Shown here: positions 27,771-62,916 of the stretch, piece by piece
Position numbering within the stretch: the first letter of the stretch is position 1
Layout: every line of letters begins with the position of its first letter
From: Physcomitrium patens
Taxonomy: Eukaryota > Streptophyta > Bryopsida > Funariales > Funariaceae
Assembly: GCF_000002425.4 (NCBI RefSeq)
Contig: NC_037260.1
Coordinates: 13,263,516-13,327,515, forward strand
DNA length: 64,000 nucleotides
Direction: 5' to 3'
The notes under the pieces: model-generated
Databases searched by the model: none
The model's input: the letters and a program-made list of their open reading frames with translations, nothing else
What the model was told of the DNA's origin: nothing
Program-made: the position numbers and the translations under genes

Positions 27771-27774
27771 CTTT

Positions 27775-28780: not shown

Positions 28781-28799
28781 ATGAAGAGCACAATTACCA

Positions 28800-32425: not shown

Positions 32426-32466
32426 AGATTGCTTCTTATAGAACTCATTCCTAGAAGGAGAGATAA

Positions 32467-33015: not shown

Positions 33016-33770
33016 AGAAGTGGATAATAATCAAAATTTTGAGGTAGAAGTCTTAGACTCAAGGCGGCACCAACATAGGTTGGAATATCTTGTTTATTAG
33101 TATATATACAATATTAACAAATACATATGGAAGCTAGCAAAAAATCTTACAAATACAACAAAGAAGGTCTAAACTTTTTATCAATAACATCCATCAAAAT
33201 GAAGATGAAGGATATCAAATCATTGCTATAAAAGAAATACAATTTGAAAAAGATTACATTCAACCTTCTTTCTTTGTTTGTAGTTTTTATATAATTATAA
33301 TATTAAAGAGATAGAAAATCAACACCCTATGGATTCACTTCAAGAGCCATCATTTTTTGACTTACTAGATGAGACATTATGATTATTATAGCTTTCAAGA
33401 TAACATAATAGGAATGAAGATCTTCAAGAATAACATGTTCTTCTTTGAATAGATTGTAAGATATAATGTGTTTTGTATTATGACCTTGAAAGAGACTCTT
33501 GATATTTAGTGATTTTATTGGAGGTAAAAATGACTTTTGATGGGATTACAAATGTTTTGTTTGAAAGAAGTTACAAAGGTTTTAAGAATGATCAAATAAT
33601 AGGGTGGTCTTCTTGCCTTAGAATGAGACATTATCAATGGCTAAGAAGACTTATCAACTACTTTTGAAGAAAACAAGATCAGAGTATGTGGCAAATAGAA
33701 TTTTTTACATCTTAAACTTCTTCAACATGTGATCATTGCTCCTCGTAGAACTCATCACTAGAAGGAGAGA
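33016..33770 (+). pseudogene. 3' internal end of the outer nested element: chromodomain remnant and third ORF
   Basis: Starts abruptly in the chromodomain (33025-33150: NFEVEVLDSRRHQHRLEYLVY), homologous to 31720-31850 of the inner copy. It then continues through the third ORF (33329-33732) and the purine-rich tract 'agaaggagagata' before the 3' LTR. It begins exactly at the end of the inner element's 3' LTR. Confidence 0.75.
33329..33732 (+). pseudogene. Third ORF downstream of the chromodomain (outer element copy)
   Basis: Begins with an ATG that encodes MDS, as in the intact ORF at 43218-43571. It proceeds through YLVILLEVKMTFDG, YKGFKNDQIIGWSS and MRHYQWLRRLINY, with stops and one frameshift near the C-terminus, to a TGA at 33730-33732. 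It is the third independent copy of this ORF in the window. It shows that the start codon lies about 200 codons after the chromodomain Trp-Glu-Pro, in a separate frame context. Confidence 0.65.
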
Positions 33771-33772
33771 TA

Positions 33773-33907
33773 TTTCAAGTTAAGACATGTGTAATAGCCA
33801 TTCTAATTTTTTTTTAATATACATGTATCTTTACTTCTATTTTATCATACTTCTTTGCAAAAAATCTCACTTGATTATTTGCTTTCATCAAGTTCTTATC
33901 CTTGATA
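33773..33907 (+). mobile_element. Shortened 3' LTR of the outer nested element
   Basis: Keeps the 'tttcaagttaagacatgtg' and 'aatagccattcta' words of the family LTR and an end CCTTGATA at 33907, but most of the LTR between and before them is deleted. The CTTCT at 33908-33912 follows as target duplication. Confidence 0.6.
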
Positions 33908-33912
33908 CTTCT

Positions 33913-35230
33913 ACATGTAGGGATTTTGTTTTCATAATTAACAACATCTCTTATTTTTCAACAAAGTCTTTATCTATAAAATAGGCTAAGGCTCCTAAAT
34001 ATAATAATGTAAAGACTTTGTGATTTTTAGGTCCTAAACATACATCTATAATAAAATAAGATGAGGGATTTAAGAAAAGAATAAGACTTTTATTTAGTAC
34101 TGCATATGATTCCAACCGCATGGTTCCTATTGTAGCTAAAGAAACTTATATTTTGATATGTTATCTTCTTTGGCAATTGTATTCCTCATTTTGTGATTAT
34201 ATTATTTTTTTAGATAATATTAATTAATATGCTTACTTTTCTATAATATAAGTATAAACTCTCTTAATAATTTCAAGTCTTTTCTTACTTTGTGAGGGAT
34301 TTAAAATGCACCATATTAATTTTCATTAGTTTTGGCCTTAATGAATAATTTTCAAAAAACTTGAAAGCTGCCATCATTACTTGACTTGTTTCTTTCCAAC
34401 CAAGTTTTTTTTCTTGATGCCTTTCAAATAATTGATTGTTACATGCAATGGCTTGAGCCATAAATCATTTCAAATATTTTTCTATTGTCATTGTCAATAA
34501 TAAATTTTTGAGGTTATCCTTGAATTCATATCAATATTGATTGATAAGGACTTTGTCATTTCAATCCACATTACAATCAAGGTTTTGGAATTCAGCAGCA
34601 TATATAGTAGTTGATCGTAAATCTTATTGTAAAAATAAGAATTTAGTCTCTACTACTCGTTTTTATTTATTTTTTCCAAATGTGGTCTTAAATACTTCTA
34701 GAAATGAATTCAAATCATATAAAAGTTACAAATACTTTTCCATCAAAAGTACAAAATAATAGAGAGGACTTCCAGAAAGACTTACGCTTATGAATCCAAC
34801 TTGAGTAAATCTATCAAGATATTGGAAGGAATACAACCCTAAATAGAGCTTGACTTGTTGAAGAAATTTTTAAAATTTTGATCTTATTTTATCAAATTTC
34901 TTAGACATACTATTTCTTATCTCTACCATACTTATAAAAGCAAAACTTCCTAGATTTAGTTGTCAGATCCATTTATTTGCTTCCTTCAACTACAAATTTT
35001 TTTGATATGAACTCTAGACTTCTTCTATAGGCATAAGAATAGTACCTCCATATTTCACGTTGGAAATACATGAAATTTTGACTCTTAGAATATTGACAAG
35101 CTTGTGAAGATTTATAATAGTTGTAAATCTATTTTTATTTCTACAAAGAGTAGTATCCATAATCTTTTCTTCCATAAACAACTCAAATAAATTCAAAAAT
35201 TTAAAGTAGAAGAAGGTAATCCACAACTTC
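33913..35230 (-). pseudogene. gag: gag and protease of the split minus-strand chromovirus (5' half)
   Basis: Reads on the minus strand from the gag start (35226, LFELFMEEKIMDT..., 70 codons open) through capsid and knuckle region to the protease. The protease start (33960-34010) has LGALAYF where DSGAS should be. It joins precisely to 25488: the protease sequence broken at 33912 continues at 25488 when compared with the intact order near 29045-29075. Many stops. Confidence 0.75.
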
Positions 35231-35417
35231 TAATATCAAATGAAAATTTCTACAAAAAGGAGTAATCTATTTTTTTAAGGAAAAAATCAGTGTTAAAATT
35301 AAGATTATTTTTTTAAAAGTGGATAATCTACAACTTTCAAAATACAACAATAGAAATAGGGTGATTCACTCATTTTTAAAAGAAGACAAGAATAATAAAT
35401 TAGTACTCTCGCCAAAC
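35231..35417 (-). promoter_or_regulatory. 5' leader and candidate primer-binding site of the split element
   Basis: On the minus strand the LTR end is followed by GTTTGGCGAGAGTACTAA (35417-35400). It contains TGG, as primer-binding sites matching a tRNA CCA end do, and resembles GTTTGACAAGAGTGCTAA after 27558. Further on are worn hairpin motifs (GTTGTAGATTATCC near 35330; GTTGTGGATTACC near 35225) matching the leaders of the other copies. Confidence 0.55.
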
Positions 35418-35933
35418 TTTCAAAGACATGAATCTTTAAAAAAAATACCTTAATACACTCTCTTGTTTCTCAAAAAGACTTGAAAATCACTTGAAGATGA
35501 TATAGTATTAAATTAGAATGGCTATTGCCAAAGATAAGAAGATTAAAAGTCTAAAAACAAGATTAAGGACTAAAAAGGCACTGACAAGAGTGAAGAAGGC
35601 TTCATTCTTGCCTCCATATATATTCTTAACTAAGAGCTACATAGTGATGTCTAATAGGACTTGAAAAATATGTTAACTACGCAAGACACGTGTCTTAACT
35701 TGCAAGAGAAGTTTTGTATATGTGTGCCACATAATTAGCTTGTTTTGTAAGCTACTAATACATGATTAACTTATTGCACAAGTTTCTAACCTATTGATCA
35801 ACTATAGACACATGTAAAGTCAAAGCAACATTTATAAAGCTTCTCTAGAAAATATTATGAAATAAATCTACTTTTATCTACTTCTATTTAATCATATAGG
35901 TAAATTTTAGAATAAGTATGTATGTCTATGATA
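35418..35933 (-). mobile_element. 5' LTR of the split minus-strand chromovirus (516 bp)
   Basis: Homologous in reverse to the 549-bp LTRs. In plus-strand reading it starts TTTCAAAGACATGAATC and ends TATGTCTATGATA, with the 'gaagaaggcttca' and TATATATTC promoter blocks between. Its partner 3' LTR is not in the window, because the element is truncated at about 24235. Confidence 0.8.
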
Positions 35934-38120
35934 TATAAGCAAGAAAAATTCTTGACATATACCATATTTAAAGCAAAGAAAATTTCGGCTATGGGACCAT
36001 ATCATAATATTTTGTAATATGCTTATATTTGTAGTAAAGATTATCAACTTTAATTGTACAAATTTTCTAAAAAAGATTATGTTTGCTTGCAATAAGAGAC
36101 ATATATAACACTTTATATCAATGAATGCTATAAATTTCTTAAAATATAATATGTTTTTTCTAGTAGTATTTTAATACTTAACAAAAAAAGATAGATAAGA
36201 ATGTTTTAAAAAACTAAAAATTATATCTAATGCTATATTTTTTATAGATATTCTTCATCTATAATTAATAATTTTATCCTTTAATGTTTATTTTAAAAAT
36301 TGATGTAACACATAAGAAGTGACTACTATATTTTTATATGATCAATGACAATATGAATGGCACATGCCATTTTTGATACCATATCTAACTATCTTTTAGA
36401 TGTTAAATTTATTGTTATTTTCAAGGATCTTTATACAATGTTATGTCTAACATACATAAATGACTTTTTAAAGTTTGGTTGTAATTGTGTAATGGCTATA
36501 CTATCATTCAATATTGAATATGTGCCAATTTGTATATGTAGGCTTAGAACTAAAAATATATATTAAATACAAGATTTTATGAAAATAATTATTGAATTGA
36601 TTAATAATTGATTTGAAATATGCTCAGACTGCCATCTTCTGCCATTTTTTTGACTTTCTTAGCATGCAATATGGCCACAACTTTGACTAAATTGTGTATT
36701 GAGGGTAAAGTGGTGATTAGTTTAGACTTTGGTCTTAAGAATTTAGTTTAATAATGAGGTTGCTATTATCAACAAAAAAAAGTATTTATAAAATATTTTT
36801 TTTAAGGATTTATGTATGCATGTTATTTTATAGTTAATATAATTATGTGACACTCAATCTATTAAAGCACACAAATTATTTTTATGTAAAAGCTATTACA
36901 TAATGTGGTGTATTATGTATTTATGTTTTGTAATCAATATGATTTTGCAGTAGTAGATATGTTGTAGTGCAAGATGATTATTTATACAAAAAATATAATC
37001 ATATCATGATTTGTAAAAAATAGAAATTTTAAAATAAAATTTGGAATTCAAAATCATAATATGAAGAACTTAAATAATTTATTTCATGTCATAAACATTT
37101 AATAATACTTTTACAGTAAAAAGAATACAGAATAATAAAAACACACGGTTTGATTTTTAAAAAACATTATAATTGATCATTATCATTTTAAAATGTATAA
37201 TGAATTTGATCTGAATTCAAATGAAAATTATTTATAAATTACTTCTAAAAACTATTATCATTTATAGAATATGTATCTTAAATGCTTGTAGTTTATATTA
37301 ATATGATTGCAAAATTATATACGATATTTAATAAATATTGACGTGTATTTGTAAGAATTATGCAATTAAATTGTTATTGGATTATTTTTTATGTATTAAA
37401 AATGCATGAAAAAAAAACATTTGTAAACTCTAAAATCAAGTAGAACATGACAGTGTTTTTATTTATTTATTTATTTTTATTTTTTTTACTGGTTGTATTT
37501 AATGTATGCTAATTGAAATATAAAACTTTTAGATATGCTAATTATAGCTACAACTGTAAATATCTACTTAATTTATTTTTTAGAAAAGAAAAAGAAAGGT
37601 TAAATAATAATGATTGCTAAACTTTAACAATTTAAAATTGTAAATCCAATATAAATCAAAAAAATGAAAATTCATGTGTTTTTTTAATGAATTATACACT
37701 TTATTGATTTACTAATGTGATTATTGGAATTATATTGTAATCATATTATGACAAACATCTATTATACATACATTCAAAAGTTTTGCTAGTTTTATTAAAA
37801 AAAATAAAAAATAAAAAACAAAAATGAAAATAAAAACAAAATACTTGATGGTAGTAAAAAAATGTACATTATATTTTCTGCAGGATTTGAATTCAAAATT
37901 AGTAAGTGTTTCCAAAATCACGTTATTTGAAATTTTTAATATTGAAAAATATGTAGATTCCTTTCATTTTAATTGTAAGTACATGGCTAATGACTACAAG
38001 TACCTTAAAGACATTTTTAACAGTACAACAAAACCCACTACAATTGAAGTATTTAGAAGACATATTTAACTTTAGCATGTTTATGGAAATTTACACCCAT
38101 TGTCTAAAAATAATTCTTCA
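35934..38120. other. AT-rich intergenic DNA; no gene seen
   Basis: Low-complexity AT-rich sequence. Open stretches such as 36357-36566 and 37824-38069 show no recognisable domain and have the amino-acid bias of AT-rich noise. A short run of T/A repeats lies at 37455-37480. No retroelement similarity was recognised. Confidence 0.5.
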
Positions 38121-42470: not shown

Positions 42471-42716
42471 TATCACAAATATAAATAATTATCAAGGTAA
42501 AAAGTATTAAGTAAAAGATAAATATATGTAGATTTTCAATAATATTATAGATACAAATTTGATATTATATGTGTTTATAGTTGATTGATAGGTTGAAAAT
42601 TTGGCCAATAAGTTGGCCACATGTTGCACATCTTATCCACTTGTGGTAAAAATTTCTTATAACATATATATAAAACTTCTCTTATAAATTCAACACATGT
42701 CTCGCAAGTGAGACAC
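42471..42716 (+). mobile_element. Old chromovirus 5' LTR, left half (split by the young element)
   Basis: Starts TATCACAAATATA (compare TGTCACGGACATA with G-to-A and C-to-T changes) and carries 'gccacatgttg' and 'cacatgtct' words of the family LTR. It breaks off at the target duplication GACAC (42712-42716) and continues at 48905-49158. Together the halves make about 500 bp, close to the 549 bp of the better copy. Confidence 0.7.
42712..42716. repeat. Target-site duplication GACAC of the young chromovirus (left)
   Basis: GACAC directly before TGTCACGG at 42717. The same five bases follow the other LTR at 48900-48904. Five bp is the usual size for Ty3/gypsy integration. Confidence 0.85.
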
Positions 42717-42878
42717 TGTCACGGACACAGAATGCAGACTTGATATCTACCAAGAAGTTCAAGAAGAACTAATAAGAACTAGATTAATCACATGAATACA
42801 AGAACAACACCAGAGAGGTGAGCTAGAGCTCCAAGAGATGTGTTGTCAAGACTGAAGAACTCTTCAGCCTTGATCCCA

Positions 42879-42885
42879 ATATATA
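42879..42885 (-). promoter_or_regulatory. TATA box in the 3' LTR
   Basis: Reads TATATAT(T) on the minus strand. It lies about 72 bp downstream of the nearest perfect heat-shock element. The equivalent in the 5' LTR is at 48641-48647. Confidence 0.65.
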
Positions 42886-42956
42886 CTCCTATTTAGGAAG
42901 CTTCTCAAGCGACTTCTACCAACTAGGAAGCTTCTCAAGCAACTTCTACCAACTAG

Positions 42957-43128
42957 GAAGCTTCTAGAAGGTTCCAAAGACTTGCTTTTAGAAGGTTCTA
43001 GAAACTTATCTCTAGAAGGTTCTAAGGACTACGTCCCTAACATCTTCTATCAACTAAGAAGCTTCTAGTAGGTTCCAGAGACTTGCTTCTAGAAGGTTCT
43101 AGAAGCTTGTCTCTAGAAGGTTCTAGAA
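42957..43128 (-). promoter_or_regulatory. Heat-shock element array in U3 of the 3' LTR
   Basis: Alternating GAA and TTC pentamer units with exact spacing: GAAGCTTCTAGAAGGTTC at 42957-42974 (four units), TTCTAGAAGGTTCTAGAA at 43087-43104 (four units), GAAGGTTCTAGAA at 42991-43003 and 43116-43128 (three units). A further site at 43058 has one unit mutated (GTA for GAA) but is perfect in the other LTR. The array lies upstream of the TATA box in element orientation. Confidence 0.8.
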
Positions 43129-43167
43129 ACTTGTCTCTAGAAGATTCTAAGGACTATGTCTCTAACA

Positions 43168-43181
43168 TCACCCCCTCCTTT
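43168..43181 (-). promoter_or_regulatory. Polypurine tract of the young chromovirus
   Basis: On the minus strand AAAGGAGGGGGTGA directly precedes the LTR start TGTTAG, as expected for the plus-strand DNA primer of a retroelement. Confidence 0.8.
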
Positions 43182-43217
43182 AGCTTCGAGGTCTCTGAGA
43201 AGTAATGTTGTTGTCAA

Positions 43218-43571
43218 TCAGTACCAACGCAAGAAAATGAAGATCTGTCGCATAACGTCTGCTATGAACTCCAACTGTTCTTCACGAGGTAAGTGGTTCA
43301 TCGGCCCTTGAAGCCAACGGTAGTGGCCCACTCCTTCAACTTCTGACCAAGCATGAACTTCCGTGTCTTCATTGTGAAATTGTCTTGCAAATATGCCTTC
43401 TGGTTGACCATCGTAAGCAAGCTCGGACTCAAATACAATCACCAGTGATCGGTTACTTGGTATCCTCCGTCGTCGTCGTGGTGCAGGTGGTTCTTCATCT
43501 GGGGGTCGCCTTCGTGAACTAGTTGGTTGAGATAATCTGACTGGCATAGTATCTATCTCTTGGCTATCCAT
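43218..43571 (-). CDS. Third ORF of the young chromovirus, between pol and the 3' LTR; function unknown
   Basis: 117 codons from an ATG at 43571-43569, with no stop inside although the upstream pol has several. The first third is disordered and basic, with Ser/Arg/Pro-rich sequence and five consecutive Arg near residue 33. The rest looks folded: SLVIVFESELAYDG at about 42-55, an acidic stretch, then a Trp/Tyr motif GHYRWLQGPMNHL, then a hydrophobic C-terminal helix. There is no signal peptide or membrane segment, and no Cys/His cluster. Homologous decayed ORFs sit at the same place in the copies at 32024-32425 and 33329-33732. It could be a nucleic-acid-binding accessory factor, a particle protein or a silencing antagonist. 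None of these is shown by the sequence. Confidence 0.75.
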   Translation of the reverse strand: MDSQEIDTMPVRLSQPTSSRRRPPDEEPPAPRRRRRIPSNRSLVIVFESELAYDGQPEGIFARQFHNEDTEVHAWSEVEGVGHYRWLQGPMNHLPREEQLEFIADVMRQIFIFLRWY

Positions 43572-43705
43572 ATCAGAAGACCAAACTAGGGCTACTGAAA
43601 AAATTCTATTTTATCTTGGAGAAAATAACTACATCAACTACGAATTTTGGTGGTGATCTCTCCCTTTCTTATATTCTTGGGTGAGCAAGCTTCAGAAAGA
43701 AGCTA

Positions 43706-44980
43706 TTGTCGAACCGGCTTAGGTTTATGAGGATGTTGTTGATGAAACTCTTGTACCTTTTACGGCGCATTGGTGAGATTTTTAGCTGGCTCCCACGTTC
43801 GCTCATTAATGTCGTAGCCGCACCAATGAACAAGATATTCCAACTTGCCCCACCTTCGCCGAGAATCCAACACCTTTTCAATCTCGTATTCCTCGTGGTT
43901 CTCGATCTCAATACTAGGTGGCGGACATTGCACTCTTCCAGGAAAAGATGACTCTCGATAAGGCTCCAACAAAGAAACATGAAAGACTGGATATACCTTC
44001 ATAGAAGCCGGTAATAACAGACGGTACGCCACTGGATTGATTTGCTTTTGGATGATAAATGGTCCCAATCTTCGATAGTCCAACTTATGACATGGTCGCT
44101 TGGTCTTGATATTCTGTCGAAGAAGCCATGCTTTATCTCCAATTTTGAAAGTAGGTGCTTGATTCCGAAATCTATTTGCAAACGCCTTGTAGGATTCTTG
44201 AGTGGATTGTAATTGAAGCTTCAACGTATTTTGAAGCTCTGATAGTTGTTTCACAAATCCTTCAGCTGCTGGATTGTTATTTGTTGATGGACTCAATAAA
44301 TCAAACTTCGGATGATACCCATCGTTGGAAAAGAATGGTGTGTATTGAGTCGACGCATGGAGGGTGTTGTTATATGCAAACTCGGCTAGCGGCAGATATG
44401 TGGTCCAATCGTCTTGCTGATAGTTGATGCTGCATTGTAAGTATTGTTCCAAGATTTGGTTCACCCGTTCCGTTTGGCCGTCACTTTGAGGATGAAAAGC
44501 CGAAGAAAGATTGATATCCACGTTCAGTATCTCAAAGAGAGATCTCCAAAACTTTGATACAAACTGGGTTCCTCGATCTGATACGATATCATCTGGTAGT
44601 CCATGATATCGATACACATTATCGAGAAAGAGTCTTGTTGTGACTTCATTCGACGATGTCTTCTTGCAAGGGACAAAGTGTGCCATTTTTGTAAGCCGAT
44701 CTACCACGACAAAGATGCTATCAAATGATGGCAGGTCCGTGATGAAGTCCATAGAAATTGAAGACCATGGTCGACGTGGAATCAGCAATGGCTGTAGGAG
44801 TCCATAAGGGCGATGCTGAGGATTCTTGGATCTTGAACAGATGTCGCAGGAGAGGACAAAATCTTTCACATCCTTCCACATTTGGGGCCACAAAAAATCT
44901 CGAGAAATAGACTCCAAGGTCTTGTTGAATCCAAAATGTCCCGCAGCTGGAAAATCGTGGCGAGATTGAAGAACTCGGAG
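43706..44980 (-). pseudogene. Integrase with chromodomain (pol 3' part, young chromovirus)
   Basis: Same frame as the rest of pol, beginning after an in-frame TGA at 44981-44983. The zinc finger is intact (HDFPAAGH ... CDICSRSK). The catalytic triad is visible: first Asp in ISMDFITDL, second in GLPDDIVSDRGTQF, Glu in DGQTERVN. A GPF/Y-type module (RRLGPFIIQKQ ... FHVSLLEPYR) is followed by a chromodomain (EYEIEKVLDSRRRWGKLEYLVHWCGYD, then RTWEPAKNL), which would direct integration to marked chromatin. The frame stops at TAA 43760-43762, but coding similarity to the older copies continues (VQEFHQQHPHKPKP), so the authentic end is probably a TAG near 43706 and 43760 is another break. Confidence 0.88.
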
Positions 44981-46380
44981 TCATGCTGGTCCTTTTGGGA
45001 TATATAACCGCTCTTCAAAGTATAAAAGATCTCCCTCCACCTTGAACTTGTCGTCATTGGCACGTTGCTTAATATCAATGGCTACTGAATCTTCAATGGT
45101 TACAGCACGTACCTGATTCTGAAAGTCAGCATCAATTCGCATAATAGTAGCGCAAAGCTGAAATTGCTCTGGCTTCAACAATGTCATACATTGTTGATCA
45201 AACGCTGCTTCTCCAGCCTTTGGTACAAGATACGATCTCCTCTGTAAGGCATCAGATAGTCCTTGCTGCTTTTCAGGTCGATAAGTGATAATAAAATCGA
45301 ACCTAAATAGCAACATACTCCATCGAGCTTCACGTCGATTTAAAACTCGAGTCGATATGAAATACTCCAAATTCTTGTGATCTGTATATATGGTCACTGG
45401 ATGTACAGCTCCTTCAAGAAAGTGACGCCACTCTTGGAAAGAATCCACTATAGCAAGAAGTTCCTTATCGTGGATCTCATAATTGATTTCAGCAGCAGAG
45501 AACTTTTGAGAATAGAATGCAACTGGATGGAGCTTCTTATCTTCTCCCATATGTGAAAGTACAGCTCCCAAAGCAAAATCCGAAGCATCAGTTTCTAAAT
45601 AGAAGGCCTTTGTAAAGTCTGGATGTATCAAGATTGGAGCCATAGTAAATGCGGTTTTCAGGTTTTGAAATACCTTCTCTGCTAGAGGTCCCCATTCCAG
45701 CTTATCCTTGCATGTCAATTGAGTGAGAGGAGCAGCAACTTGAGAGTAATTCTTGATAAAGATCCAATAGAAGTTGGCAAAACCAAGAAAGCATTGTACA
45801 TCTCTAACCGTCTTCGAAACCTCCCAGGACTTGATTGCTTCCACCTTCTTGGGGTCCATCTTCAAGCCTTTCGTAGTCGCAACGAACTCCAAAAACTCCA
45901 TCTCTATTTGGTGAAATAAACACTTCTCCAACTTGGCATATAGTCCTCGCTCACGTAGTTTCTCCAATACCAAATGAACGTGTTTTTCATGCTCTTCCTC
46001 ATTTTTGGAGAATATCAAAATATCATCCAAATAGATGACAACAAAATCGTCAAGGTACTCTCGGAAAATGTCATTCATCATATGTTGAAAGATTGCTGGA
46101 GCATTAGTAAGACCAAAGGGCATGACATTATATTCAAAATGGCCATACCTTGTACGGAACGCTATCTTCCACTCATCTCCTTCCTTGATTCGTACGAGGT
46201 TGTAAGCTCCCCTTAGATCAATTTTTGTAAAGATCCTTCCACGTCCAAGTTATTCTAAGAGACCAGAAATCAAGGGTAACGGGTAATGATTCTTCTTTGT
46301 TACCTTGTTGAGGCCTCGATAGTCCACGCACATCCGCAACGAGCCATCTTTCTTCTTCACAAATAAGATGGGTGCTCCAG
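44981..46380 (-). pseudogene. Reverse transcriptase and RNase H (young chromovirus)
   Basis: RT motifs in order are [49 protein letters not shown], and VIYLDDILIF (YLDD at 46022-46033). The thumb/connection region is FLGFANFY. RNase H has LETDASDFALGAVLS, INYEIHDKELLAIV and IYTDHKNLEYF, so the acidic catalytic residues are present. In-frame stops are TAA at 46250-46252 (a Gln codon in relatives) and TGA at 44981-44983 (an Arg codon expected). Otherwise intact and without frameshift. Confidence 0.9.
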
Positions 46381-46381
46381 C

Positions 46382-47215
46382 TCACGATTTTGAATGACAG
46401 ATGAAGTTCTTGGCTAGATTCTCGTCGATGTACTTCCGCAACTCTGCCAACTCCATCTGCGATAGATTGTAGATTGGGCCAAAAGGCGGTTGTGCTCCTT
46501 CCTGTAAGTCTATGGCGCAATCATATGGTCTGTGTTTCGGTAGCATGTCGGCATTTTTCTTTTGAAACACGTCTTTAAAATCCTTATATTGCTCCGGTAT
46601 ACTTGCTGTCGAGATCTTCTCTCCGGTAGTTGGAGCCGCATAAATGACAAACAGTGTGCCTCCCTTAAACAATCTTATAAATGCTCTTGCTCCAATAAAT
46701 AAGGATTTCTCTATTCGAGGTTTTCTACTAGGCTTGCTCTTAGGTGGTTTTGTAGGAAAGGTCATCTTCTGCAACTTCCAATCTATGGATGGGTTATGTT
46801 TTTTCAACCAGGAAAGACCAAGAATAATAGGATTTGATGGGATTCTAATAATATTGAAAATAATATGACTATTATGGTCCTTAAACGTCACTTCTATAGG
46901 TTCTGATTCATGGATGACACTACCAGACAATAAAGGTCGTCCATCTATGACCTCAACGTGAACAGGTTTGGATTTTTGTACTAAAGGGATCTTATGACGC
47001 TTTGCAAATTCTTCATCTAAAAAACAAGCAGATGCTCCTTAATCTAATAATGCTAAGGTTCTTAGTTTCTGAGGGCCAATAAGCAAAGAGATTGTAAAAC
47101 AAAGGGCAGGTTGAGCGGAAAGAAAGGAACCTGGTTGTTGTTGCGATATTTCACTGTCCAGCGGCACGGTTCCTATTGTGGCTGGGCATCCTCGTTTTCC
47201 TGAATAAACGCATCC
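46382..47215 (-). pseudogene. Protease and protease-RT spacer (pol start, young chromovirus)
   Basis: The pol frame opens after a TAG near 47218 and overlaps the end of gag by about 45 nt in the -1 frame. The aspartic protease segment is LALLD-stop-GASACFL: the residue after the catalytic Asp is a TAA at 47039-47041, where Ser or Thr is required. The downstream fold markers IILGLSWLKKHNPSIDW are intact. The spacer ends at a TGA (46382-46384) just before the RT FVKKKDG block. Role in the active ancestor: cleavage of Gag and Gag-Pol. Confidence 0.85.
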
Positions 47216-48198
47216 CTAGCCTTGATAATATGTCGATTTTGCTTCTTGGGGCAGTTTCCAACTTTGTGGCCTTCTTCACCACAATACAAGCATAGACCTT
47301 TCTCCATACGCCGCTTTTTTTCTTCTAGAGTAAGACATTTGACACGTACAGCATCAATTTGCATGTCTTTTACCTCTGAATGTGAATTCACGCTGCTTGC
47401 CGACATAGTTGGGGTGTGGCAAACCCTATGTTGTCTTGAACGTTGGTCTTGGCGACGTTGGAATAGGCGGTTATCGCACTTCACAGCTTGGCTAATAGCT
47501 TCGTTGAGCGTTTGCGGATCAAGAAGAGTTAACAGCAAATCCTTCACATCGTCCCTTAAACCCCAATAGAATTGACTCAACAACGCTTCTTCGTTCCAAT
47601 TGATATCGCATGCTAATTGCCTAAAGTCCGATGCATAGACTGATGTAGAACGCATCCCTTGTCATAGTGACCGGATCTTTGTTGTAGCCCATCGAACCTT
47701 GTCATGTTCACCAAATGCTTCCGCAAATGCCTCCAAAAAGGTTTCAAAGTTGTTTAGTATGGACGATCGTTTCTCAAATAAAGGAGCAAACCATGATAGA
47801 GCTTGTCTTGTAAGTAAGGTTCCAACAAGCCCAACACGTGACTCCTCCGTTGGATAGCGTTCGGGCTGTAAAACTGTTATCAACCTGATTTGGTTGACGA
47901 TTCCTCGAAACTTGAAACGTGTACCATCGAACTTGTCCGGAAGGCTAACTCGGGGTTCCTTATGTTGTAGAACCAGCGGTGCTTGTCGAACGTGAGGCAA
48001 AGTTGTTTTTCCAAGTGTAGAAGTTTGAGGCTGGTGCAACCTAGATTGTGCCATCCTAAATGCTCCATCATTATGAAGCCTTGCCACGACTCCTTCAATC
48101 TCTGCAGTTCTTTGTGATAACGTAGCGAGGGCATTCATGATAGCATCTAACTTGGACTCTAAACTTTCCGTCATACTAATGTCTTGGCCCCCGACCAT
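47173..48198 (-). pseudogene. gag: gag with CCHC zinc knuckle, one nonsense codon (young chromovirus)
   Basis: Starts at the ATG 48198-48196 (MVGGQDISMTES...), with a short coiled coil, then a capsid-type domain (LPDKFDGTRFKFRG, ALSWFAPLFE, FLEAFAEAFG). One in-frame TGA at 47662-47664 splits an otherwise continuous frame of about 341 codons. A further capsid part follows (LSQFYWGLRDDVKDLLL), then the knuckle CLYCGEEGHKVGNC with all four ligands in C-x2-C-x4-H-x4-C spacing. The stop is TAG at 47173-47175. The product would form the particle and bind genomic RNA. Confidence 0.9.
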
Positions 48199-48478
48199 TC
48201 TAAGAGAAGGACAGAAATGACTCTACAAAAAGACAATATTGGTTTAGAGGAGGGTACTCCGCAACCTCTAAAATGCCTTAAGAGCTTCAAAAAAATGGAT
48301 AATCCACTCTCTCCAAGAAGAATAAGACTCCAATATTGTAATAAAAGAAGTATCAGTTTAGAGGAGAGTAATCCGCAACCTCTAAAGTGCTAGTACACTT
48401 CCAAGCAGAGGGGTAATCTACACTCTAACAAAGAAGAAACTAGCTCTGATATCTGAGGTGAATGAAGTCTCCACAAAC
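48199..48478 (-). promoter_or_regulatory. 5' leader of the young chromovirus with two tandem hairpins
   Basis: Two units 114 bp apart. Each has an 8-bp perfect stem TTTAGAGG / CCTCTAAA around a 14-base loop beginning TTGCGGA and containing TAC (48243-48272 and 48357-48386). Two GGATTATCC-like motifs lie between and beyond them (about 48297 and 48406). The candidate primer-binding region, directly after the LTR on the minus strand, is GTTTGTGGAGACTTC. A sequence matching the usual plant initiator-Met site (TATCAGAGC) occurs 24-36 bases in (48443-48454), farther from the LTR than usual. Confidence 0.75.
48243..48272 (-). repeat. Leader hairpin unit 1 (perfect 8-bp stem)
   Basis: Stem TTTAGAGG/CCTCTAAA with a 14-base loop. 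Unit 2 with an identical stem is at 48357-48386; the loops differ at two positions. Confidence 0.85.
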
Positions 48479-48640
48479 TGTCACGGACACAGAATACAGA
48501 CTTGATATCTACCAAGAAGTTCAAGAAGAACTGGCAAGAACTAGATTAATCACATGAATACAAGAACAACACCAGAGAGGTTAGCTAGAGCTCCAAGAGA
48601 TGTGTTGTCGAGACTGAAGAACTCTTCAGTCTCGATCCCA

Positions 48641-48647
48641 ATATATA
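48641..48647 (-). promoter_or_regulatory. TATA box in the 5' LTR
   Basis: Reads TATATAT on the minus strand, immediately downstream of the heat-shock element array. It is the only TATA-like site in the LTR. Confidence 0.65.
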
Positions 48648-48717
48648 CTCTTATTTAGGAAGCTTCTCAAGCAACTTCTACCAACTAGGAAGCTTCTAAA
48701 AGATTCCAGAGACTTGC

Positions 48718-48860
48718 TTCTAGAAGATTCTAGAAACTTATCTCTAGAAGGTTCTAAAGACTATGTCCCTAACATCTTCTACCAACTAAGAAGCTTCTAG
48801 AAGGTTCCTGAGACTTGCTTCTAGAAGGTTCTAGAAGCTTGTCTCTAGAAGGTTCTAGAA
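48718..48860 (-). promoter_or_regulatory. Heat-shock element array in U3 of the 5' LTR
   Basis: TTCTAGAAGATTCTAGAA at 48718-48735, GAAGCTTCTAGAAGGTTC at 48790-48807, TTCTAGAAGGTTCTAGAA at 48819-48836, and GAAGGTTCTAGAA at 48848-48860. Each is an unbroken series of inverted GAA units at 5-bp spacing, the binding pattern of heat-shock transcription factor trimers. The array sits 71-210 bp upstream of the TATA box in the direction of element transcription. Confidence 0.82.
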
Positions 48861-48899
48861 ACTTGTCTCTAGAAGGTTCTAAGGACTATGTCCCTAAGA

Positions 48900-48904
48900 G
48901 ACAC
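48900..48904. repeat. Target-site duplication GACAC of the young chromovirus (right)
   Basis: Matches 42712-42716 exactly. Removing the element and one copy rejoins the older LTR. Confidence 0.85.
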
Positions 48905-49158
48905 ATATTGGAGATCCTAAAGAATATTGCTATCTAACTTCTAATTAGATAGCATATGTAGAGGTAGGATTAAAGCCTTCTTCACTCTTATTAATGTTTT
49001 TCTAGTCTTTAATCTTATCTTAAGAGTCTCTAATTTTCTTGTCTTTATTGTAACTATTCTAATTTAAAATTATATTATCTTGGAGTAATTACTAATACTT
49101 TTTTAATGACATAAGAATATATCAATCTTTTGATTTTTTGTAATTCATGTCCATGATA
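48905..49158 (+). mobile_element. Old chromovirus 5' LTR, right half
   Basis: Continues the LTR broken at 42716. It carries the 'gccttcttcactcttatta' promoter block, then 'agtctttaatctt' and an end ATGTCCATGATA at 49158, aligned with 27340-27558. The leader with GTTGCAAACTACCC and GTTGCAGATTATTC motifs follows. Confidence 0.75.
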
Positions 49159-52100
49159 TTGTGAAAAGACTATTAGGTGATTATTCTTATTTTTTAAAAA
49201 AAATGAAGTACCTCACTTTTTTTTGTTATGGTTTAAAAGTTGCAAACTACCCACTTTAAAATTAAAATTATAGTTTCTTAATTATATCTTTTTTCCTAAA
49301 AAAAGTCGATTATTTTTCTTTTTTTAAAAAAATATTTGATATTAGAGGTTGCAGATTATTCTCTTCTAATTTGACTTATAGTTTTTTTAAATTATCTATG
49401 GAAGAAAAAATTATGAATGCTATATTTGGTAAAATTAAAAATAAATTTGTAATTATTACAAATCTTCATGAGCTTGCCAACTCTCTTAGGATAGAAATTT
49501 CACATATTTCTAATATCAACCTATACTTATAGAAGAAGTCAAAAATAAAATTTAAAATCTATACTAAAAAGTTGTACAATTGAAAGAAACAAGTAGATCA
49601 ATTTAAAAATTAATTTTAAAAAGTCTTACTATTATAAATATATAAGAAGTAATAATTAGCATGTTAGAGAAGTTTAATTGACAACATTAAAATTTCAAAG
49701 TTTTCTACAAGAAAAGAAGCTCTATCTAAAGTTGCATCCTTCTCAATATTTTAATAGATTTATTTAAGTTTCATTCATTGGTGCACTTCTTTTTAGAATT
49801 TTTTTTCTTTTTATTTGCACCTTTAATATAAAAATTAAAAATTAATTTTTTTTTTAAAAAAAAAATCACAACTTTTCAATGGCCTACAATTCTTCATAAA
49901 AATATTTTTGGCCACATTTGAAGAAAATAATCAAGAAAAGATAGTAGAGATCAAAATTTTATTTTTACAATAGAGATCACGTTCAACCACCAAATATACT
50001 ATCAAATTTTAAAATCTTGTTTGCAATGTGGATTGAAATGATAAAGCCTTCATCAATCAATTTTGAAATGAATTGAAAGATAATGTCAAAGATTTATTGT
50101 TGACAATGCCAAGAGTGAACTTATTGGAATAGTTTATTGTTTAAGCCATTGCATGTATCAATCAACTTTTTGAAAGATGCTAAGAGCAAAGATTTGGTTG
50201 AAGAAGCATAAAACAAGTCATGGCAATAACATCCAAGTTTTCAGAAGCTTATTCATGAAGTTTGGAATCTATGCAAATTGATATGGTATGCTTCAAATCT
50301 CATTGAGTAAAAAAAAGGCTTGACATCATGAAGAGGATTTGTACTTATATTGTAGAGAATCTAAATACATTACTTAAAATTTTCTAAAGAAGTAATACAA
50401 TCATAAAATAAAGAGCATGATTGCTAAAAAGGATAATATGTTAAAAAATGAATGTATATAATAATAATAAGAATTGTGCAACTAGAACCTTGTACAATAT
50501 CTAATAAATTTCATATTTGTTTTTGAAATCCCTCATCTTAATTTATAATAGATGTTTGTTTTAGACTAAAAATTTCAAAGTCTTTGCTTTATTAGATTCA
50601 AGAGCCTAAGCTTATTTTACAAATATAGACTTTGTTAAAAAAACATGAAATATCTTTAATCAAAAAAACAAAATATATGCATGTGAAAATCATAAATGGT
50701 CATTTATTATCTTTTAGAGATGTTTGCATAAAATTGTTCTTTTAGATGTAATAACTAATGGTCATGATAGCTTAATTATAACTAATATTATTAATTCTCT
50801 TTTTAATCCAATTATTTTATGTTTATTGTGGCTAAAGAAGTATAATCCTAAAATAGATTAAATTTCTTATAATTTTGATTTTTATAAAAATATAACCTTA
50901 ACTTTTATTATTGAGGTAGAAATTCATAATTTTAATAAAACTAAATCCTTATTGGTTGATACAAGAGCTTTCATATATGTTGCAAAAGAAAGGTCAATTT
51001 TTGTTATTTATGTAAAATCCATTTTTGATGGTGGAAAGACTTCAAGTAGCATTCCAAGCAAGTATCAAGATTATGAAGACATTTTGTAGAAGAAAAATGT
51101 AGATTTACTTTGAAGCATCTATAATTGTTCAATTGATCTTCAAGAAGGAATTTAATTGCCACTTTGACAATCTATAGCATATTTTACAACAAATTGGCTA
51201 TACTAAAGGAATATATTAATGAGAACCTAATTAAAAACTTCATATATCATTTAAAATCTCTTATTAGAGCTCTTGTCTTATTTGTGAAGAAAAAATACAA
51301 GTCACTTTGGATCTACTTAGACTATTAAGGACTTAATAAGGTTACCATCAATAATAGGTAGCTTTTAGTTTTGATATCAAAACTACTTGATTAACTCAAT
51401 ATTAAAATAAATCTATGAAGAGAATACAATCTAGTCAATATTAAAAAAAAGAAGATGAATAAAAGACTGCATTTCAAATCAAGTATGGATATTTTAAATA
51501 TAAAGTCATGCTTTTGAACTCACAAATGTACTAATTACTTTTTAATATCTTATGAATGATATTTTTTAAGAATTTCTAAATATATATATTTTTAATTTAG
51601 AAAATATCTTAATCTATTCTAAAAATATAAAAAAGCATAAATTTAATATTTTTCATATATTAAAAAAATTTAAAGAAGCATGACTATATGTAAAGCTAAA
51701 AAATGTATGTATTTTATATTACTTAATTTGACTTATAGTATATCATTTCAAATGATGGCCTTATGATGGATCTTAAAAAAAATTAAACTATCATAAATTT
51801 AAAGATTTCAAAGATATTAAAAAATATCTATTATTTTTTGAATTTTGTGAATTATTATGAAATATTTATCAAAAATATTTCTAAAGATGTAGCTTTGTTC
51901 ATATGTTTGATTTGTAAAGACAAACTTTTATGGAATAAAGAAGAAAAAAGTGACATTTAAAGCTATGAAGATAGCTTTTATTTTTGTACTAATATTATAT
52001 TGCGTCAATTTTTTGAAGGAATTTTTTATAAAAATAAAGAAATCAAGCTTTTCTTTGAATGCAATATTATCATAAATGGAAGAAAATAGAAAATTTAGCT

Positions 52101-53810
52101 AATAGCTTTCCATTCAAGAAATATTTTAATAGTTAAGTTCAATTACAAGATTCGTAACAAAGAGTTTTTTATAATTAAAGAATCAATTCAAGAATAGTGT
52201 TATTATTTAGAAAGAACTTCTAGTCCATTCAATGTATATATAGATCATAAGAACTTTAAGTATTTTATGTTATTATATGTTTTAAATAATTGCTAATCCA
52301 ATTGGAGCATATCTTCGGTAAGATTTGATTTTAAGATTTTTTATTATTTAAATAAAGAATAAGATTTGTCAAACACTCATTTGAGACATTTTTATCTTAT
52401 ACCAAAAAAAAGATACAACTTTTGATTAACAAAGAATAATTTTCTTGAAGCCAAAGCAATTCCATCTTCAATCAATAAAATCAACATTAACTATTGTTTC
52501 AATCTTTTTCAAGTAAGTTCAATCAAATATATCTTCCAATCTTCTAGTTTATGATTTTAAGCATAGTTCTTTTAAGTTTTATAATACTTTTAAATTTGAA
52601 TTTAAAAATAATTTATTCTATTTTAAATAAAAATTATTTGTTCTTAAAATGAAGTATGATTATAAGCTCTTGAAGCTCATCACAACTTTCCAATTACAAG
52701 ACATTTTAGATACAATGAGACTTTAAAGCCAATATCTAGAGATTTTTAGTGGCCACAAATGTAGAAGTTATTTAAAAACTTTGTACAGGTATGTGATATT
52801 TTTTTAAGATCAAAATTCCTTATTATTGATCTTATGGACTTCTTTAGTCATTACTTACATGTAAATAATCATAATCTTTTGTTTCCATGGATTTTACTAT
52901 GAATCTTTTGATCTCAAGTTCTTATAATTTTATATTTATGATAGTAAATCATTTCACTAAAATGGCATATTTTATATTATATATAAAATCTATCAAAGAT
53001 AAAGAAACATCTATTTTTTTTATAATATCTATTCCTATCATAGATTGCTAAAAGTTATAATATGTCATAAAAGAATCTAATTTGTATTAAAGATTTGAAA
53101 ATCTTTTTTAAGATTTTGAAGGTGGACATAAAATCGTCTTTAATTTTCTAATCTCAAAATGATGGAAAAACAAAATAGTTGAATCAAGTTTTTGAGTAAT
53201 ATTTGTAATGTATTATTAATTACCATCAAAATGATTATACAATTTTTTTACCATTGATAAAGTTTACTTATAATAACATGATACATTTTTTTACTTCATA
53301 AATTTTTTTCTAATTATAATTAATATCCATAATTTGATAATTTTGAGTTTTTTAAAATTAATAATCATAAAGATTTAGAAAATTATTCATTTAAGTTACA
53401 TGCAATAATGAAGATGCATTTGAAAGTTTCTCAAGAATGACAATAGATCAATGAAAATTCCTATTGTAATGAACAACCTTAATTCTATATTGGTGATAAG
53501 GTATGATTACTTTGTTATAATATCAAGACTATTTGTCTTTATGACAAGTTGGATTATAGTAGACTTAGATTTTTTTTCATATGTAAATTGCTTAATCTAA
53601 TTGCTTATTGATTATATCTATCAAAGTCTATAAATATTTTTCTTATTTTTCACATATCTCTTTTTGAGTTATGTAAGACATTAGATATACCAGAAAGAAG
53701 ACAAATGTCACATCTTCATATAGAAGTGGACAATAATAAAAAAATAAAAAATCAAAGAAGTTTTAAATTCAAGGCAATGAAAAAATAGGTTAGAATAGAA
53801 TTTAGAAGGT
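49159..53810 (+). pseudogene. Internal region of the old plus-strand chromovirus (gag-pol, heavily decayed)
   Basis: Collinear with the 27-33 kb copy but with stops every few codons. The gag start is near 49390-49520 (homologous to LFELPIEEK). Capsid follows to about 50280 and a knuckle remnant near 50330-50400. The protease is near 50590 (LLDSRA). RT is at about 51260-51800, with the YLDD motif hardly readable near 51590. RNase H is at about 52060-52400, integrase at about 52700-53640 (FHISLFELCK end), and a chromodomain remnant to about 53800. No third ORF could be followed after it. C-to-T and G-to-A changes dominate and AT content is far above that of the young copy. Confidence 0.75.
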
Positions 53811-54640
53811 AAAATAGAATTTGCAACAATAATTGACAAAAAAAAGCTCCTAAAATTTTTGGATGTTAGCTGCTATCTTTTGTCAACCTAGTTGTTGATT
53901 TTTTAGTAGCAATTTTTCTTTATTAAATTTTTTAATTGCTATAAAAATTATCTAATGTATAAACATTTAAGTCAAATTTCTCTCACCAATTTTTTTTTAA
54001 TTGAACTATTAGATTTTTTTGGATTGCAAAAACCCTCATTGATCCTAAATTTCAAAAATTTAAGTTCCAAATTCAATAAAAATTTCATATCTTTCAAAGT
54101 AATCATTCAATTAATATCAAATTTATCAAAAAAAAAACATAAAACAACCACAAAAATAAATTTATAAACTTTCATTTATAAATTTAATACCATATTCATA
54201 TAATCTTTAAATTTATAAACCACTTTTTATTTTTTAAAATCAAAAACCTCTAAATACATCTTTCACTTTGAAAAGGCATGAAAAACTCAATATGTATTAA
54301 AATCACTTAAAATTAATGCTTAAATAATTCTTTTAAAGTCTTCTCTCTAATTATATTTGAATATTAATATCTTTGAATATTAATTCTTAGTTTCTAAAGG
54401 AAATTTTTAATAAAAATTATTCTTAATTTTTTTAAAATATCTATATTGATTATTTATTTTATATACATTTATTTTCTTTATTTATGGTTCTATAAAATAA
54501 GTAGAAGTTTTCTATATAATAAGGCAATATTAATACTTATTAATTTTTACTATCTCTTTATTTATTTTCTATATTTATAAGATAATTTTATAAAATATTT
54601 TTATTTAAGATCTTCTATAATATTATCTTTTTTTTCCCTC
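53811..54640. other. AT-rich DNA between old chromovirus pol and its 3' LTR
   Basis: No similarity to the third ORF or any other part of the element was recognised. The 70-codon open stretch at 53955-54167 is AT-rich noise in composition. Confidence 0.45.
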
Positions 54641-54649
54641 TTTTATTTA

Positions 54650-54918
54650 ATGGTTATGTTACAATACAACAATGTATTACACATGTTGGCCACTTATGGT
54701 AAAATTTGTGATGTGGTACATATATAAAATTAATTTTGTAAATTTGACACATGTCTTATAAATGGAACATGTGTCAAAGATCCTATAGAACATTACTATA
54801 TAGCTTTTAGCTAGCCAATATATATGGAAGCAAGACTAAAGCCTTCTTCACTCTTATCAATGCTTTTTTAGTCTTTAGTCTTGTCTCAAGAGTCTCTAGT
54901 TTTCTTGTCTTTGGTAGA
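54650..54918 (+). mobile_element. Partial 3' LTR of the old chromovirus
   Basis: Matches the family LTR from the 'cacatgttggccac' block through 'gtggtacatatat', 'tagcttttagct', 'gccttcttcactcttatcaatg' and 'tctagttttcttgtctttgg'. It then ends abruptly at about 54918, before the LTR terminus. The beginning is eroded beyond recognition. Confidence 0.7.
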
Positions 54919-59706: not shown

Positions 59707-60603
59707 TTATTCTTCAACACTTCCATTTTCGGCACTGCCGTTCAGCAACTTCTCCTCTTTATTGCGGCCATCCTTGCCAATCTTGACGACCATTGGCAGG
59801 AGGGGAGGTCCATTGCTTGTTGGTACACGCTCACCCATTACGGCATCAGCCAAGCGCCGATCCACGTAAAAAAACACAAAATACACGGTGAACCAAGCCA
59901 CGACGATATCTACAGAGTAATGCTTGTGCGAGGCTATGATGAGAAGGCTCAAAGCAACCATCGTCAGAAATGCAACAAATTTCATCCATTGTCTCGTCCC
60001 GTACTTCACATAGGAGTGGAAGAACGTCAATGCGAATGTCATGTGTGAGGAGAATATTAAGTCTCCACATCCATATATCACTCCATATGGAAAATTCAAG
60101 AGTAATACATCTTTGACGTTCTTCGGGGGCGGCAAGATAGCCGTTGGCTGACCCTCGTGACAATGATAGTTTGGCCCAGGCAACTGCGTCACCATAAACG
60201 ACGCCATTCTCAAACACTGGCAGATCACTAGACACATAAGCACTCTGACCCACAGCAGTGCAGTGTAAAATCGCTTATTGTAAAATACGAAAGGGTGGAA
60301 TGACCACAGAAGAAAAGAAACAAAAACGAGAGTGAAAAGAGATTCGCTTATGTGCGCATTCTTTTTTCCAAGTTCCGGGAGGTACTCGAAACCAACATCG
60401 TGAAGCAACGGTCCCGGATGGTGTTGATAATGTGCGATACGTGCACCAACTCCATGTACATACTGAAACAGCAGCCCTCCAATAATCAACTTCCAATTCT
60501 CCAACAGTAGCAACCATTCCACTGAGAGCTCCATGATCCCTCTCTTCCATAATTTTGAAACTTCCCGTGTTACATAGGTTGGCAATCCCATAATCCCCAT
60601 CAT
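59707..60603 (-). CDS. IPCS: Inositolphosphorylceramide synthase (sphingomyelin synthase family), intronless
   Basis: Transfers phosphoinositol from phosphatidylinositol to ceramide, giving inositolphosphorylceramide and diacylglycerol; predicted in Golgi membranes. The start is the ATG at 60603-60601 (298 aa). The frame stays open to a GTG at 60663, but a TAG lies upstream and no earlier ATG exists; Met5 (60591) is an alternative that aligns with the usual plant start before 'REVSKLWKR'. About six hydrophobic segments. Family motifs: LPGPNYHC at 141-148, YGCGDLIFSSHMTF at about 177-190, and SHKHYSVDIVVAWF at 225-238. The catalytic triad His187, His228 and Asp232 is present. The soluble C-terminal tail has the plant KLLNG motif. 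Length is typical of plant enzymes. It is encoded in one exon, unlike flowering-plant orthologues. Confidence 0.95.
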   Translation of the reverse strand: MMGIMGLPTYVTREVSKLWKRGIMELSVEWLLLLENWKLIIGGLLFQYVHGVGARIAHYQHHPGPLLHDVGFEYLPELGKKNAHISESLFTLVFVSFLLWSFHPFVFYNKRFYTALLWVRVLMCLVICQCLRMASFMVTQLPGPNYHCHEGQPTAILPPPKNVKDVLLLNFPYGVIYGCGDLIFSSHMTFALTFFHSYVKYGTRQWMKFVAFLTMVALSLLIIASHKHYSVDIVVAWFTVYFVFFYVDRRLADAVMGERVPTSNGPPLLPMVVKIGKDGRNKEEKLLNGSAENGSVEE

Positions 60604-62916
60604 CTTTTCTACGAAACCAAACAATCGTCTGTTTGAATCGAGAATAGCTCCCCGTCCTCCCACAGAACCCTAACCCACACACATCGCAGTATTCACCGAG
60701 TCTATTCAAATCAAACCTCTATGCTATATTCCCTCTTTTCTTCACACATGACCGCGCAACTTTAAACGACTAAGGCATTCTCCATCATAGACTTGAGGGC
60801 TAAGTGTCTTAGCTTAAAGAACGAGGTCGCACATCGAAGTGTTGGCGTACGTAGAGCAAGCGATCCACATGGGTCGGTCTCTTTCTCGCACACGCAACTG
60901 ACCCAAACCTCCACCAAAAACTCACACATCAAACAAACCACTTCCGTGTGATCCAACACGGCAAATCAACCACGGCTTACTGTTGCAGGAGGTCAAGCTA
61001 TATACCTTGCAAAGAACTGGAGTTCTGTAAACTTTTTTATGGCGTTACAGCTTAACTTCGGGCTGTAAAAAGGGGGTCTCACGTTGGATTACCAGCAGTA
61101 ACCTCAATCGGATTCAGGACGAGGGCTGCCGTTAAATTCTGAACAGGACGAAGAGTTCTGGGAAGCTGAAAGTTGAACAGTTATAAGGTCGGATTCACAC
61201 TTGAGCTCTCCGCCTCCCAGAAAAAGAATCCTACTGTCCCAGCTTCATGGGGGCGGCAGGTTAGTTCGGCCCCTTACTCGGACAGTATCATGGCAACTCG
61301 TTCTGGACACCAACCTTCTGAAAGTTCGGCTAACGTTTGTGGCTTCCACTGGGACAGCTTGCAAGGACATCTGGGGCCAGGTTCTTTTTTTAATTAACTC
61401 GTCATTCGGAGGGAATGTTGCACTAAGAGGACAAACCTGGCAGTTGAAAGCAAGCCATGAATTGATGGTTTACTTTCCGAGTCTACTTTTTCTAAGTTTG
61501 AAACCATCTTCTATTGCTTTTATTAACCCTCATGCAATTCTCGCACAAAAACTCTAGGACAGTAAACTTTTCAAAGGCGCTTCAGATCTCAATTGGTCTA
61601 GGTCCTTCGCACCTACGGATTTATTCCTCGAGCGCAGGAAACGACTCGATGAAGTTCTTACTGCAGTCGCTGGAATACTGCAAGTGTTGCGAAAGGTCTG
61701 CAACGCATTGCTACAGACGGTTCCTACTAAAAGATGACATATTTGTATGATTTAACGGAAGTTTACCAAGTAGCGTCTAAGAACAAAGCAATGATCAGAG
61801 AGGGCGGGAACCTTCGGGGTGGTTAATGAGCTTAATCAGCCAGACATGGAGAGGGAGCTTCACAGCACGGTCAACCCCTCGTTTGAACAACACAAAGTTC
61901 TTCACAAAGGAGACGGCATCGTTGGGTCATGTCAATAATTTTGCTGTAACCATATTGAATGCTTTTAGTCACTGAAAGCAGATCGTGCCCTAGCACTTCT
62001 AGTCAATCATGATCGATTTGAGAAACATCTCGTACGAACAGCAGGCCACAAGTTTCCACATTAGGTTCCAACTCTCGAATGGCACGATCCGTCGTGATTG
62101 AGGGCTTACACAAATTTCAAACTCCTACAGCAACTCGAGTAGAAAACGACCGCTGAACAGTAGGCAGCTCCGCTTGCGTGCTGCAACATAACTCTAGTAC
62201 GTAATATGCAATAAAAGTAGACTCTGTCAGACTCGGTAATGAACAACTGTCAGAAGAATACTGGAACTGGTAAAAACCACTAACTATTCGCAAATAGTGT
62301 ACAATTTGGAGTAAGAACACATCTATGTGCAAACCTGTGATGACAAGACAAAATTTTGGCGATAGTGATGTGAGATGCACTGACATATTAACAGCTTAAA
62401 AAAGTGTATTCCAAGTCAGACTAAATACCCACTCTTTCAGGCAATTTAAGCTGACACCATTGGGCCCGCTAGGTACGAAACAAGGTCACTCAGACAATTC
62501 CAGGTAAGAAGAGCAGAAAAGTCATGTTGATATGTTTGAAATAAACAGTGAGTTAACAGTCATCTAAACACTGACATCAACGGCTCTTCGTGTTTACAAG
62601 TTAGGACTATCAACTGTGCTGTATTGCATAATATGTACATTAGAAGCACCTTCTTGATAGATTGATCGAAAGATAAATAAACATTAATCTAAGAGCTTAA
62701 TGGATGGAAGCTTGTGGAATGACAGGCAATGGCTTATGAAGAGCAGAGAATAGCAGCAACCTGACCAGTGACAGTTGGTTACTTAACTTGGTAACCTGTT
62801 GACAATGTTAAAATTAAGTTCTGCTGAGATCCTAGGCAAAGCCCATCCTGGAATCATTATGTTCGCATCAGGCTCACTACGCACAGCATCCATTGCGATG
62901 GTGAAGCGAAGTACAT
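60604..62916. other. GC-normal intergenic region; no confident gene
   Basis: Contains the promoter and 5' UTR of the synthase gene (from 60604) and the 3' UTR of the next gene (up to 62916). Open frames on the plus strand at 61173-61750 and on the minus strand at 60762-60959 and 62117-62386 are short, mutually overlapping and without recognisable domains. A run GTAAAAAGGGGG lies near 61065. I see no tRNA or transposon here. Confidence 0.4.

Follow-up and report, generated by a model that had tools for sequence, protein, structure and literature searches.

The stretch of DNA analysed in this study, hereafter the window (64 kb), contains a Ty3/gypsy chromovirus, termed element A, that lies inside an older chromovirus. 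A host gene for NADPH-cytochrome P450 reductase is located at 11576-13657 on the minus strand. The reductase shares 82% identity with that of Ceratodon purpureus, 81% with that of Physcomitrium patens (81% of the query covered), and 69% with that of Sphagnum, compared to 61-68% with seed plants among the best 120 of 7337 matches (residues 60-693). Since this gene is closest to those of mosses among the named matches listed, the host was assigned to the mosses, probably to the Bryopsida, and thus to the non-seed plants. A fungal host was also considered, as the protein of element A initially looked fungal, and was dropped because the host gene in the window is that of a moss. A further host gene fragment with a PAP2_C domain is present at 59707-60669 and presumably resembles plant inositolphosphorylceramide synthase. 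The older chromovirus belongs to a second family, B, with several copies at 17554-18505, 24237-36000, and 48905-54914. The region filled by family B is AT-rich, with about 20-31% GC compared to 42% in the middle of element A.

Element A was delimited by LTR alignment to 42717-48899, and it and all its parts are on the minus strand. The 5' LTR (48479-48899, 421 bp) was aligned with the 3' LTR and begins with TC, and the 3' LTR (42717-43167, 451 bp) has the form TG..CA and is preceded by a polypurine tract read from the sequence at 43171-43181. The element is flanked by a 5-bp target-site duplication, GACAC, with its left copy at 42712-42716 and its right copy at 48900-48904. When joined, the flanks align with other LTRs of family B, and this empty-site alignment places the insertion inside the 5' LTR of the older chromovirus B5 (48905-54914, plus strand). 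The internal part consists of a gag remnant in two open frames (47173-48222), a protease region (46382-47038; RVP_2, weak but above the cut-off), reverse transcriptase (RT)/RNase H (44981-46249; open frames and domain search), and integrase with a C-terminal chromodomain (43760-44980; Integrase_H2C2, rve, SH3_Tf2-1, and Chromo). DUF4939 was found in the first gag frame; a zinc knuckle was recognized by eye in the second, for which a Pfam search returned zero matches. The coding part is broken, because these regions are split among five separate open frames. The two LTRs share 94.8% identity over 421 aligned columns, with 18 transitions and 4 transversions (K2P 0.055), plus a 30-bp length difference. 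With its frames broken and its LTRs 5% apart, this copy is dead. As a broken relic, it could at most serve as a heat-responsive promoter, without proteins of its own.

The longer consensus of the heat-shock element (HSE) is CTnGAAnnTTCnAG. In this study, HSE arrays were defined as exact alternation of GAA and TTC every 5 bp. The first-pass annotation had reported three four-unit HSEs and one three-unit HSE in the 5' LTR, and exact scanning found precisely these, the former at 48718-48735, 48790-48807, and 48819-48836 and the latter at 48848-48860. The 3' LTR carries four-unit HSEs at 42957-42974 and 43087-43104, and three-unit HSEs at 42991-43003 and 43116-43128. Scanning the LTR for a TATA box found only one, TATATAT at 48641-48647 (minus strand), which lies downstream, in the sense of the element, of all four arrays of at least three units in the 5' LTR, in agreement with the arrangement claimed before. 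The 5' LTR additionally has five two-unit GAA/TTC pairs, one of them below the TATA box. In 3000 dinucleotide shuffles per LTR, none matched the observed number of arrays of at least four or at least three units. Across the window, 10 arrays of at least three units were observed compared to a shuffle mean of 1.20, and 5 of at least four units compared to 0.07 (100 shuffles). All 5 four-unit arrays are located in the two LTRs of element A, as are all 5 exact copies of CTnGAAnnTTCnAG in the window; beyond the element, the window has 2 arrays of at least three units and 0 of at least four.

The arrays sit in a tandem-repeat block at 48675-48881 (minus strand, repeat scan), which consists of 24-bp units within 101-bp units. 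One motif has therefore been multiplied, and the hits are not independent. The earlier statement that four-unit arrays are rare by chance held in the shuffles, with the correction that the arrays are not separate events. The repeat brings in the strongest rival explanation, in which replication slippage in a palindromic unit rich in TCTAGA produced the GAA/TTC words as a side effect, without any regulatory role for them. This explanation, which we regard as unlikely, agrees with the position of the arrays inside the repeat and with the difference of one 30-bp repeat unit between the two LTRs. It is opposed by the behaviour of shuffled units. When dinucleotide-shuffled 24-bp units were tandemly repeated, arrays of at least three units formed in 34/20000 cases and arrays of at least four units in 2/20000; with mononucleotide-shuffled units, the numbers were 13/50000 and 0/50000. 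The 24-bp unit used in this test itself yields three-unit arrays, not four-unit arrays. The HSE arrays of element A exceed chance even when the 24-bp unit is taken as the event. We also compared the entropy of columns among the 14 tandem units of both LTRs. On average, the GAA/TTC core had 0.12 bits and the four HSE linker columns had 0.19; the value for all 18 columns outside the core was 0.61. The HSE stretch is therefore even throughout and the spacer uneven, and the core varies least, only slightly below the linkers. Since tandem copies homogenise, the contrast with the spacer is weak evidence of constraint, and since the core and linkers vary almost equally little, constraint inside the array is hardly shown, which again suits slippage.

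The domain order of element A is PR-RT-RH-INT with a C-terminal chromodomain, as for a Tcn1 (Tf1/Sushi-like) chromovirus. The Chromo domain was found by search, and its cage residues were judged by eye against the group I aromatic-cage motif. Element A resembles Tcn1 chromoviruses in its chromodomain, its 5-bp target-site duplication, and a putative self-priming site that is degraded here and exact in relatives. Among the best 120 protein matches listed for element A, the named ones were fungal or vertebrate, none was from a plant, and most were unnamed. The classification as a plant Ty3/gypsy chromovirus made in the first-pass annotation was borne out.

Relatives were obtained by an RT alignment scan of bacterial genome contigs, which yielded 14 loci (L001-L014); scans of viral contigs yielded zero relatives. 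The 14 loci look like eukaryotic contigs filed in bacterial bins. Moss-like contigs occur in a Synechococcales bin. L001 shares 87% amino acid identity with element A in RT and 82% nucleotide identity over 3.5 kb. Seven loci (L002-L007 and L010) come from a Trichormus bin and are probably fern. Trichormus is a name given to the cyanobacterial symbiont of the fern Azolla, and both names occur together in published papers; the plant behind these contigs is probably Azolla. If so, Tcn1-like chromoviruses occur in ferns; the available portion of a report on a PCR survey of ferns states that they were not found (PMC2864245). In a midpoint-rooted RT tree, built without a Tcn1 or seed-plant chromovirus reference, element A grouped with L001, family B, and unnamed proteins (97). 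All other sequences, fungal and vertebrate elements among them, formed the sister group of this clade. L003-L007 and L010 formed a separate clade (100), and L002 was placed apart with an unnamed protein.

By analogy with six of the relatives, the transcript start and a 12-nt self-primer of element A would lie at 48605-48616 (minus strand), about 32 nt below the TATA element. With the start put near 48616, the HSEs of at least three units would be about 100-245 bp upstream. A putative, degraded self-priming primer-binding site at 48465-48476 (minus strand) matches the primer at 10/12 positions, counted by eye; exact self-priming matches of at least 8 nt numbered zero in element A, and likewise in the 5' part of L004 and in B1. 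Exact self-priming complementarity of 11-12 nt was found in 6/8 related elements, namely L001 (12 nt), L002, L005, L006, L007, and L010. In these six, the distance from the beginning of the TATA motif down to the self-primer is 32-34 nt, and the target of the self-primer is a site 2 nt past the 5' LTR. In a shuffle control run on two elements, the observed match length was reached in 2/2000 shuffles for L010 and 1/2000 for L001. According to the accessible part of one paper, self-priming has been described in Tf1/Sushi elements, and most plant Tcn1 elements are predicted to use it too (PMC6317226); an earlier paper, in the part available, found neither tRNA priming nor self-priming for Selaginella SM-Tcn1 (PMC2864245). 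A near-perfect palindrome at 48605-48650 straddles the putative transcript start of element A, with a 10-bp stem and z = -5.2 as single-stranded DNA. By eye, this arrangement at the start recurs in L001, L005, L007, and L010; the palindrome letters differ between element A and the Trichormus-bin elements.

HSE arrays of at least three units were present in 4/7 readable U3 stretches (L001, the 3' LTR of L004, L007, and L010). L003 and L006 have LTR edges only, and the LTRs of L008, L009, L011, L012, and L014 were not located, so that these loci stand outside this count. The contig of L001 begins inside U3; the part present has two three-unit HSEs within 95 bp above the TATA box, zero perfect four-unit arrays, and one four-unit array with one mismatch. 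In the 3' LTR of L004, in L007, and in L010, CTnGAAnnTTCnAG occurs exactly once, along with a four-unit array that has a single mismatch, and the HSE score of each was reached by 1/400 shuffles. The scan found no array in the U3 of L002, of L005, or of the 5' part of L004, so that HSEs above the TATA box were present in 3/6 and absent in 3/6 of the Trichormus-bin stretches, which are probably fern. It also found none in L013, which has 387-bp terminal repeats and is more distantly related. The two ends of L004 differ, and its contig may thus be chimeric; L004 also shares a 22-nt identity with element A in opposite orientation. In family B of the window, a three-unit array at 27106 occurs in 1/5 LTR copies covering the site, and family B was therefore dropped as a second HSE family.

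These relatives also bear on the slippage explanation. The U3 of L005 has repeated TTCTAGA words and zero HSE arrays, as slippage would have it. Against this, the 24/101-bp repeat was sought and found absent in the 3' LTR of L004, L007, and L010, whose only period, of 10 bp, spans the HSE itself, and the tandem repeat scan of the U3 piece of L001 found none. As the HSE motif recurs above the TATA box in relatives without the tandem repeat, it is argued not to be a mere by-product. Furthermore, 5/6 arrays of at least three units in the 14 loci fall inside the 1.5 of 71.2 kb known as U3 (binomial 2e-8, with related copies that are not independent). In the three aligned Trichormus-bin LTRs, 29/34 columns of the HSE block are invariant compared to 115/224 in the remainder of U3; the 34-column stretch with the highest invariance (31/34) is at the start site, not the HSE. 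The first-pass annotation had named a tandem-repeat by-product not kept across copies as the outcome that would speak against it. The array is indeed a tandem repeat, and the recurrence of the motif in some relatives bears on the second half of that description.

We consider HSF-driven transcription the likeliest function of the HSE promoter of element A, and a reasonably probable one. HSF binding, heat induction, and a benefit to the element are what we infer behind the observed sequence, geometry, excess over chance, and recurrence in some relatives. The HSE core (CTnGAAnnTTCnAG) in the U3 of a moss Tcn1-type chromovirus would have been copied by local tandem duplication, giving a stack of three- and four-unit HSEs at the distance from the putative start given above. 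Where members of the family are active, this stack would be bound by heat-activated HSF trimers that switch on full-length RNA, which would prime its own reverse transcription. Since some relatives have similar sites at the matching part of the promoter, the lineage may well wake in heat. In the RT tree, HSE-less elements stand between element A and the Trichormus-bin HSE elements, and the 22-nt identity with L004 runs in opposite orientation; a shared origin of the HSE in the two groups is therefore only one possible reading. Each side of the tree contains elements with and without HSEs, and repeated gain and patchy loss would both fit. The best reading is that an HSF-driven promoter may have been gained more than once or patchily kept. 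A broader proposal, which we put forward only tentatively and hold to be somewhat less probable than its negation, is that the HSE promoter is a trait, either ancient or recurrent, of self-priming Tcn1-type chromovirus elements across non-seed plants (moss, and fern if the plant is Azolla), with a heat-shock tie independent of ONSEN and with tandem stacking in mosses.

A second rival explanation, less probable still than slippage, is that the array serves as an enhancer on which a different regulator acts, for instance one of general stress, ABA, or development, with a binding site overlapping the HSE consensus. In the part of the source available, the Physcomitrium gypsy element RLG2 is upregulated with heat and ABA, whereas RLG1, an element with a chromodomain, shows expression in protonema and is downregulated upon heat shock (PMC7466625). 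These responses suggest that moss LTR promoters use other inputs, and the repression of RLG1 also counts against heat induction. Four units alternating at exactly 5 bp, together with the complete CTnGAAnnTTCnAG consensus, fit HSF specifically. Such an array corresponds to the 4P class described in the accessible text of a study of ONSEN (PMC5059998). An assembly artefact or chance clustering has a negligible probability, as no point in its support was found and it is opposed by the arrays in both LTRs, 5.7 kb apart, by the clean target-site duplication and nesting, and by the shuffle controls.

The lineages of mosses and Arabidopsis separated more than 400 million years ago. If the family is induced by heat, LTR capture of the heat-shock response would have happened in a second superfamily and in plants long separated from Arabidopsis. 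Mosses, with their strong swings of heat and desiccation, would then be a testbed for stress-driven retrotransposition, and such LTRs could lend a heat response to nearby genes.

The ONSEN-like promoter architecture proposed by the first-pass annotation was upheld, since element A has a 4P HSE in U3 upstream of the TATA box, as ONSEN-like elements do. In the available text on ONSEN (COPIA78) of Brassicaceae, its 4P HRE arose through duplication of a proto-HRE and, in three species, accompanies heat induction of 185- to 976-fold (PMC5059998). ONSEN is a Ty1/copia element of seed plants with measured heat induction, whereas element A is a Ty3/gypsy element of a moss with a putative heat response, and it has more HSE copies than the ONSEN promoter. 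Because its integrase follows RT/RH, element A is not ONSEN proper, though it may work like ONSEN. The claim that it is unrelated to ONSEN holds, but the accessible literature already contains precedents, namely RLG2 as a heat-induced moss gypsy element and TCN3 with putative HSEs. With the plant Tcn1 chromoviruses of mosses and Selaginella, element A shares a moss host and would share a putative aromatic-cage chromodomain, putative self-priming, and a probable Tf1/Sushi affinity, but the parts available of the papers on them do not mention an HSE array (PMC6317226, PMC2864245, PMC3350952). RLG1 is probably a plant Tcn1 chromovirus; RLG2 is placed as plant-like rather than fungal-like in the tree of the source, as far as its accessible text goes (PMC7466625). 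In the available part of a Cryptococcus study, putative LTR HSEs number two in TCN3 (Ty3/gypsy) and one in TCN12, and transposition in vitro occurred only at 37 C for TCN3 and almost only at 37 C for TCN12; unlike element A, these elements are fungal with few putative HSEs, and the role of Hsf1 is suggested rather than demonstrated (PMC12810828). Bamboo PHRE1/2 and gypsy elements of Cryptomeria (review PMC9780303) are also plant Ty3/gypsy elements reported as heat-responsive. The words HSE and heat shock element are absent from the main text of the PHRE1/2 paper, and in the portions of the sources available, HSE arrays go unmentioned for RLG2, PHRE1/2, and the Cryptomeria elements. A search of titles and abstract openings, with subscription journals mostly outside its coverage, found no HSE array named in the LTR of a non-seed-plant chromovirus. 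HSE-driven LTRs are thus already known from ONSEN, and putatively from TCN3/TCN12, as is a heat-induced moss gypsy element, RLG2. At the level of titles and abstracts, what appears to be new is a dense HSE array in a self-priming chromovirus of a non-seed plant.
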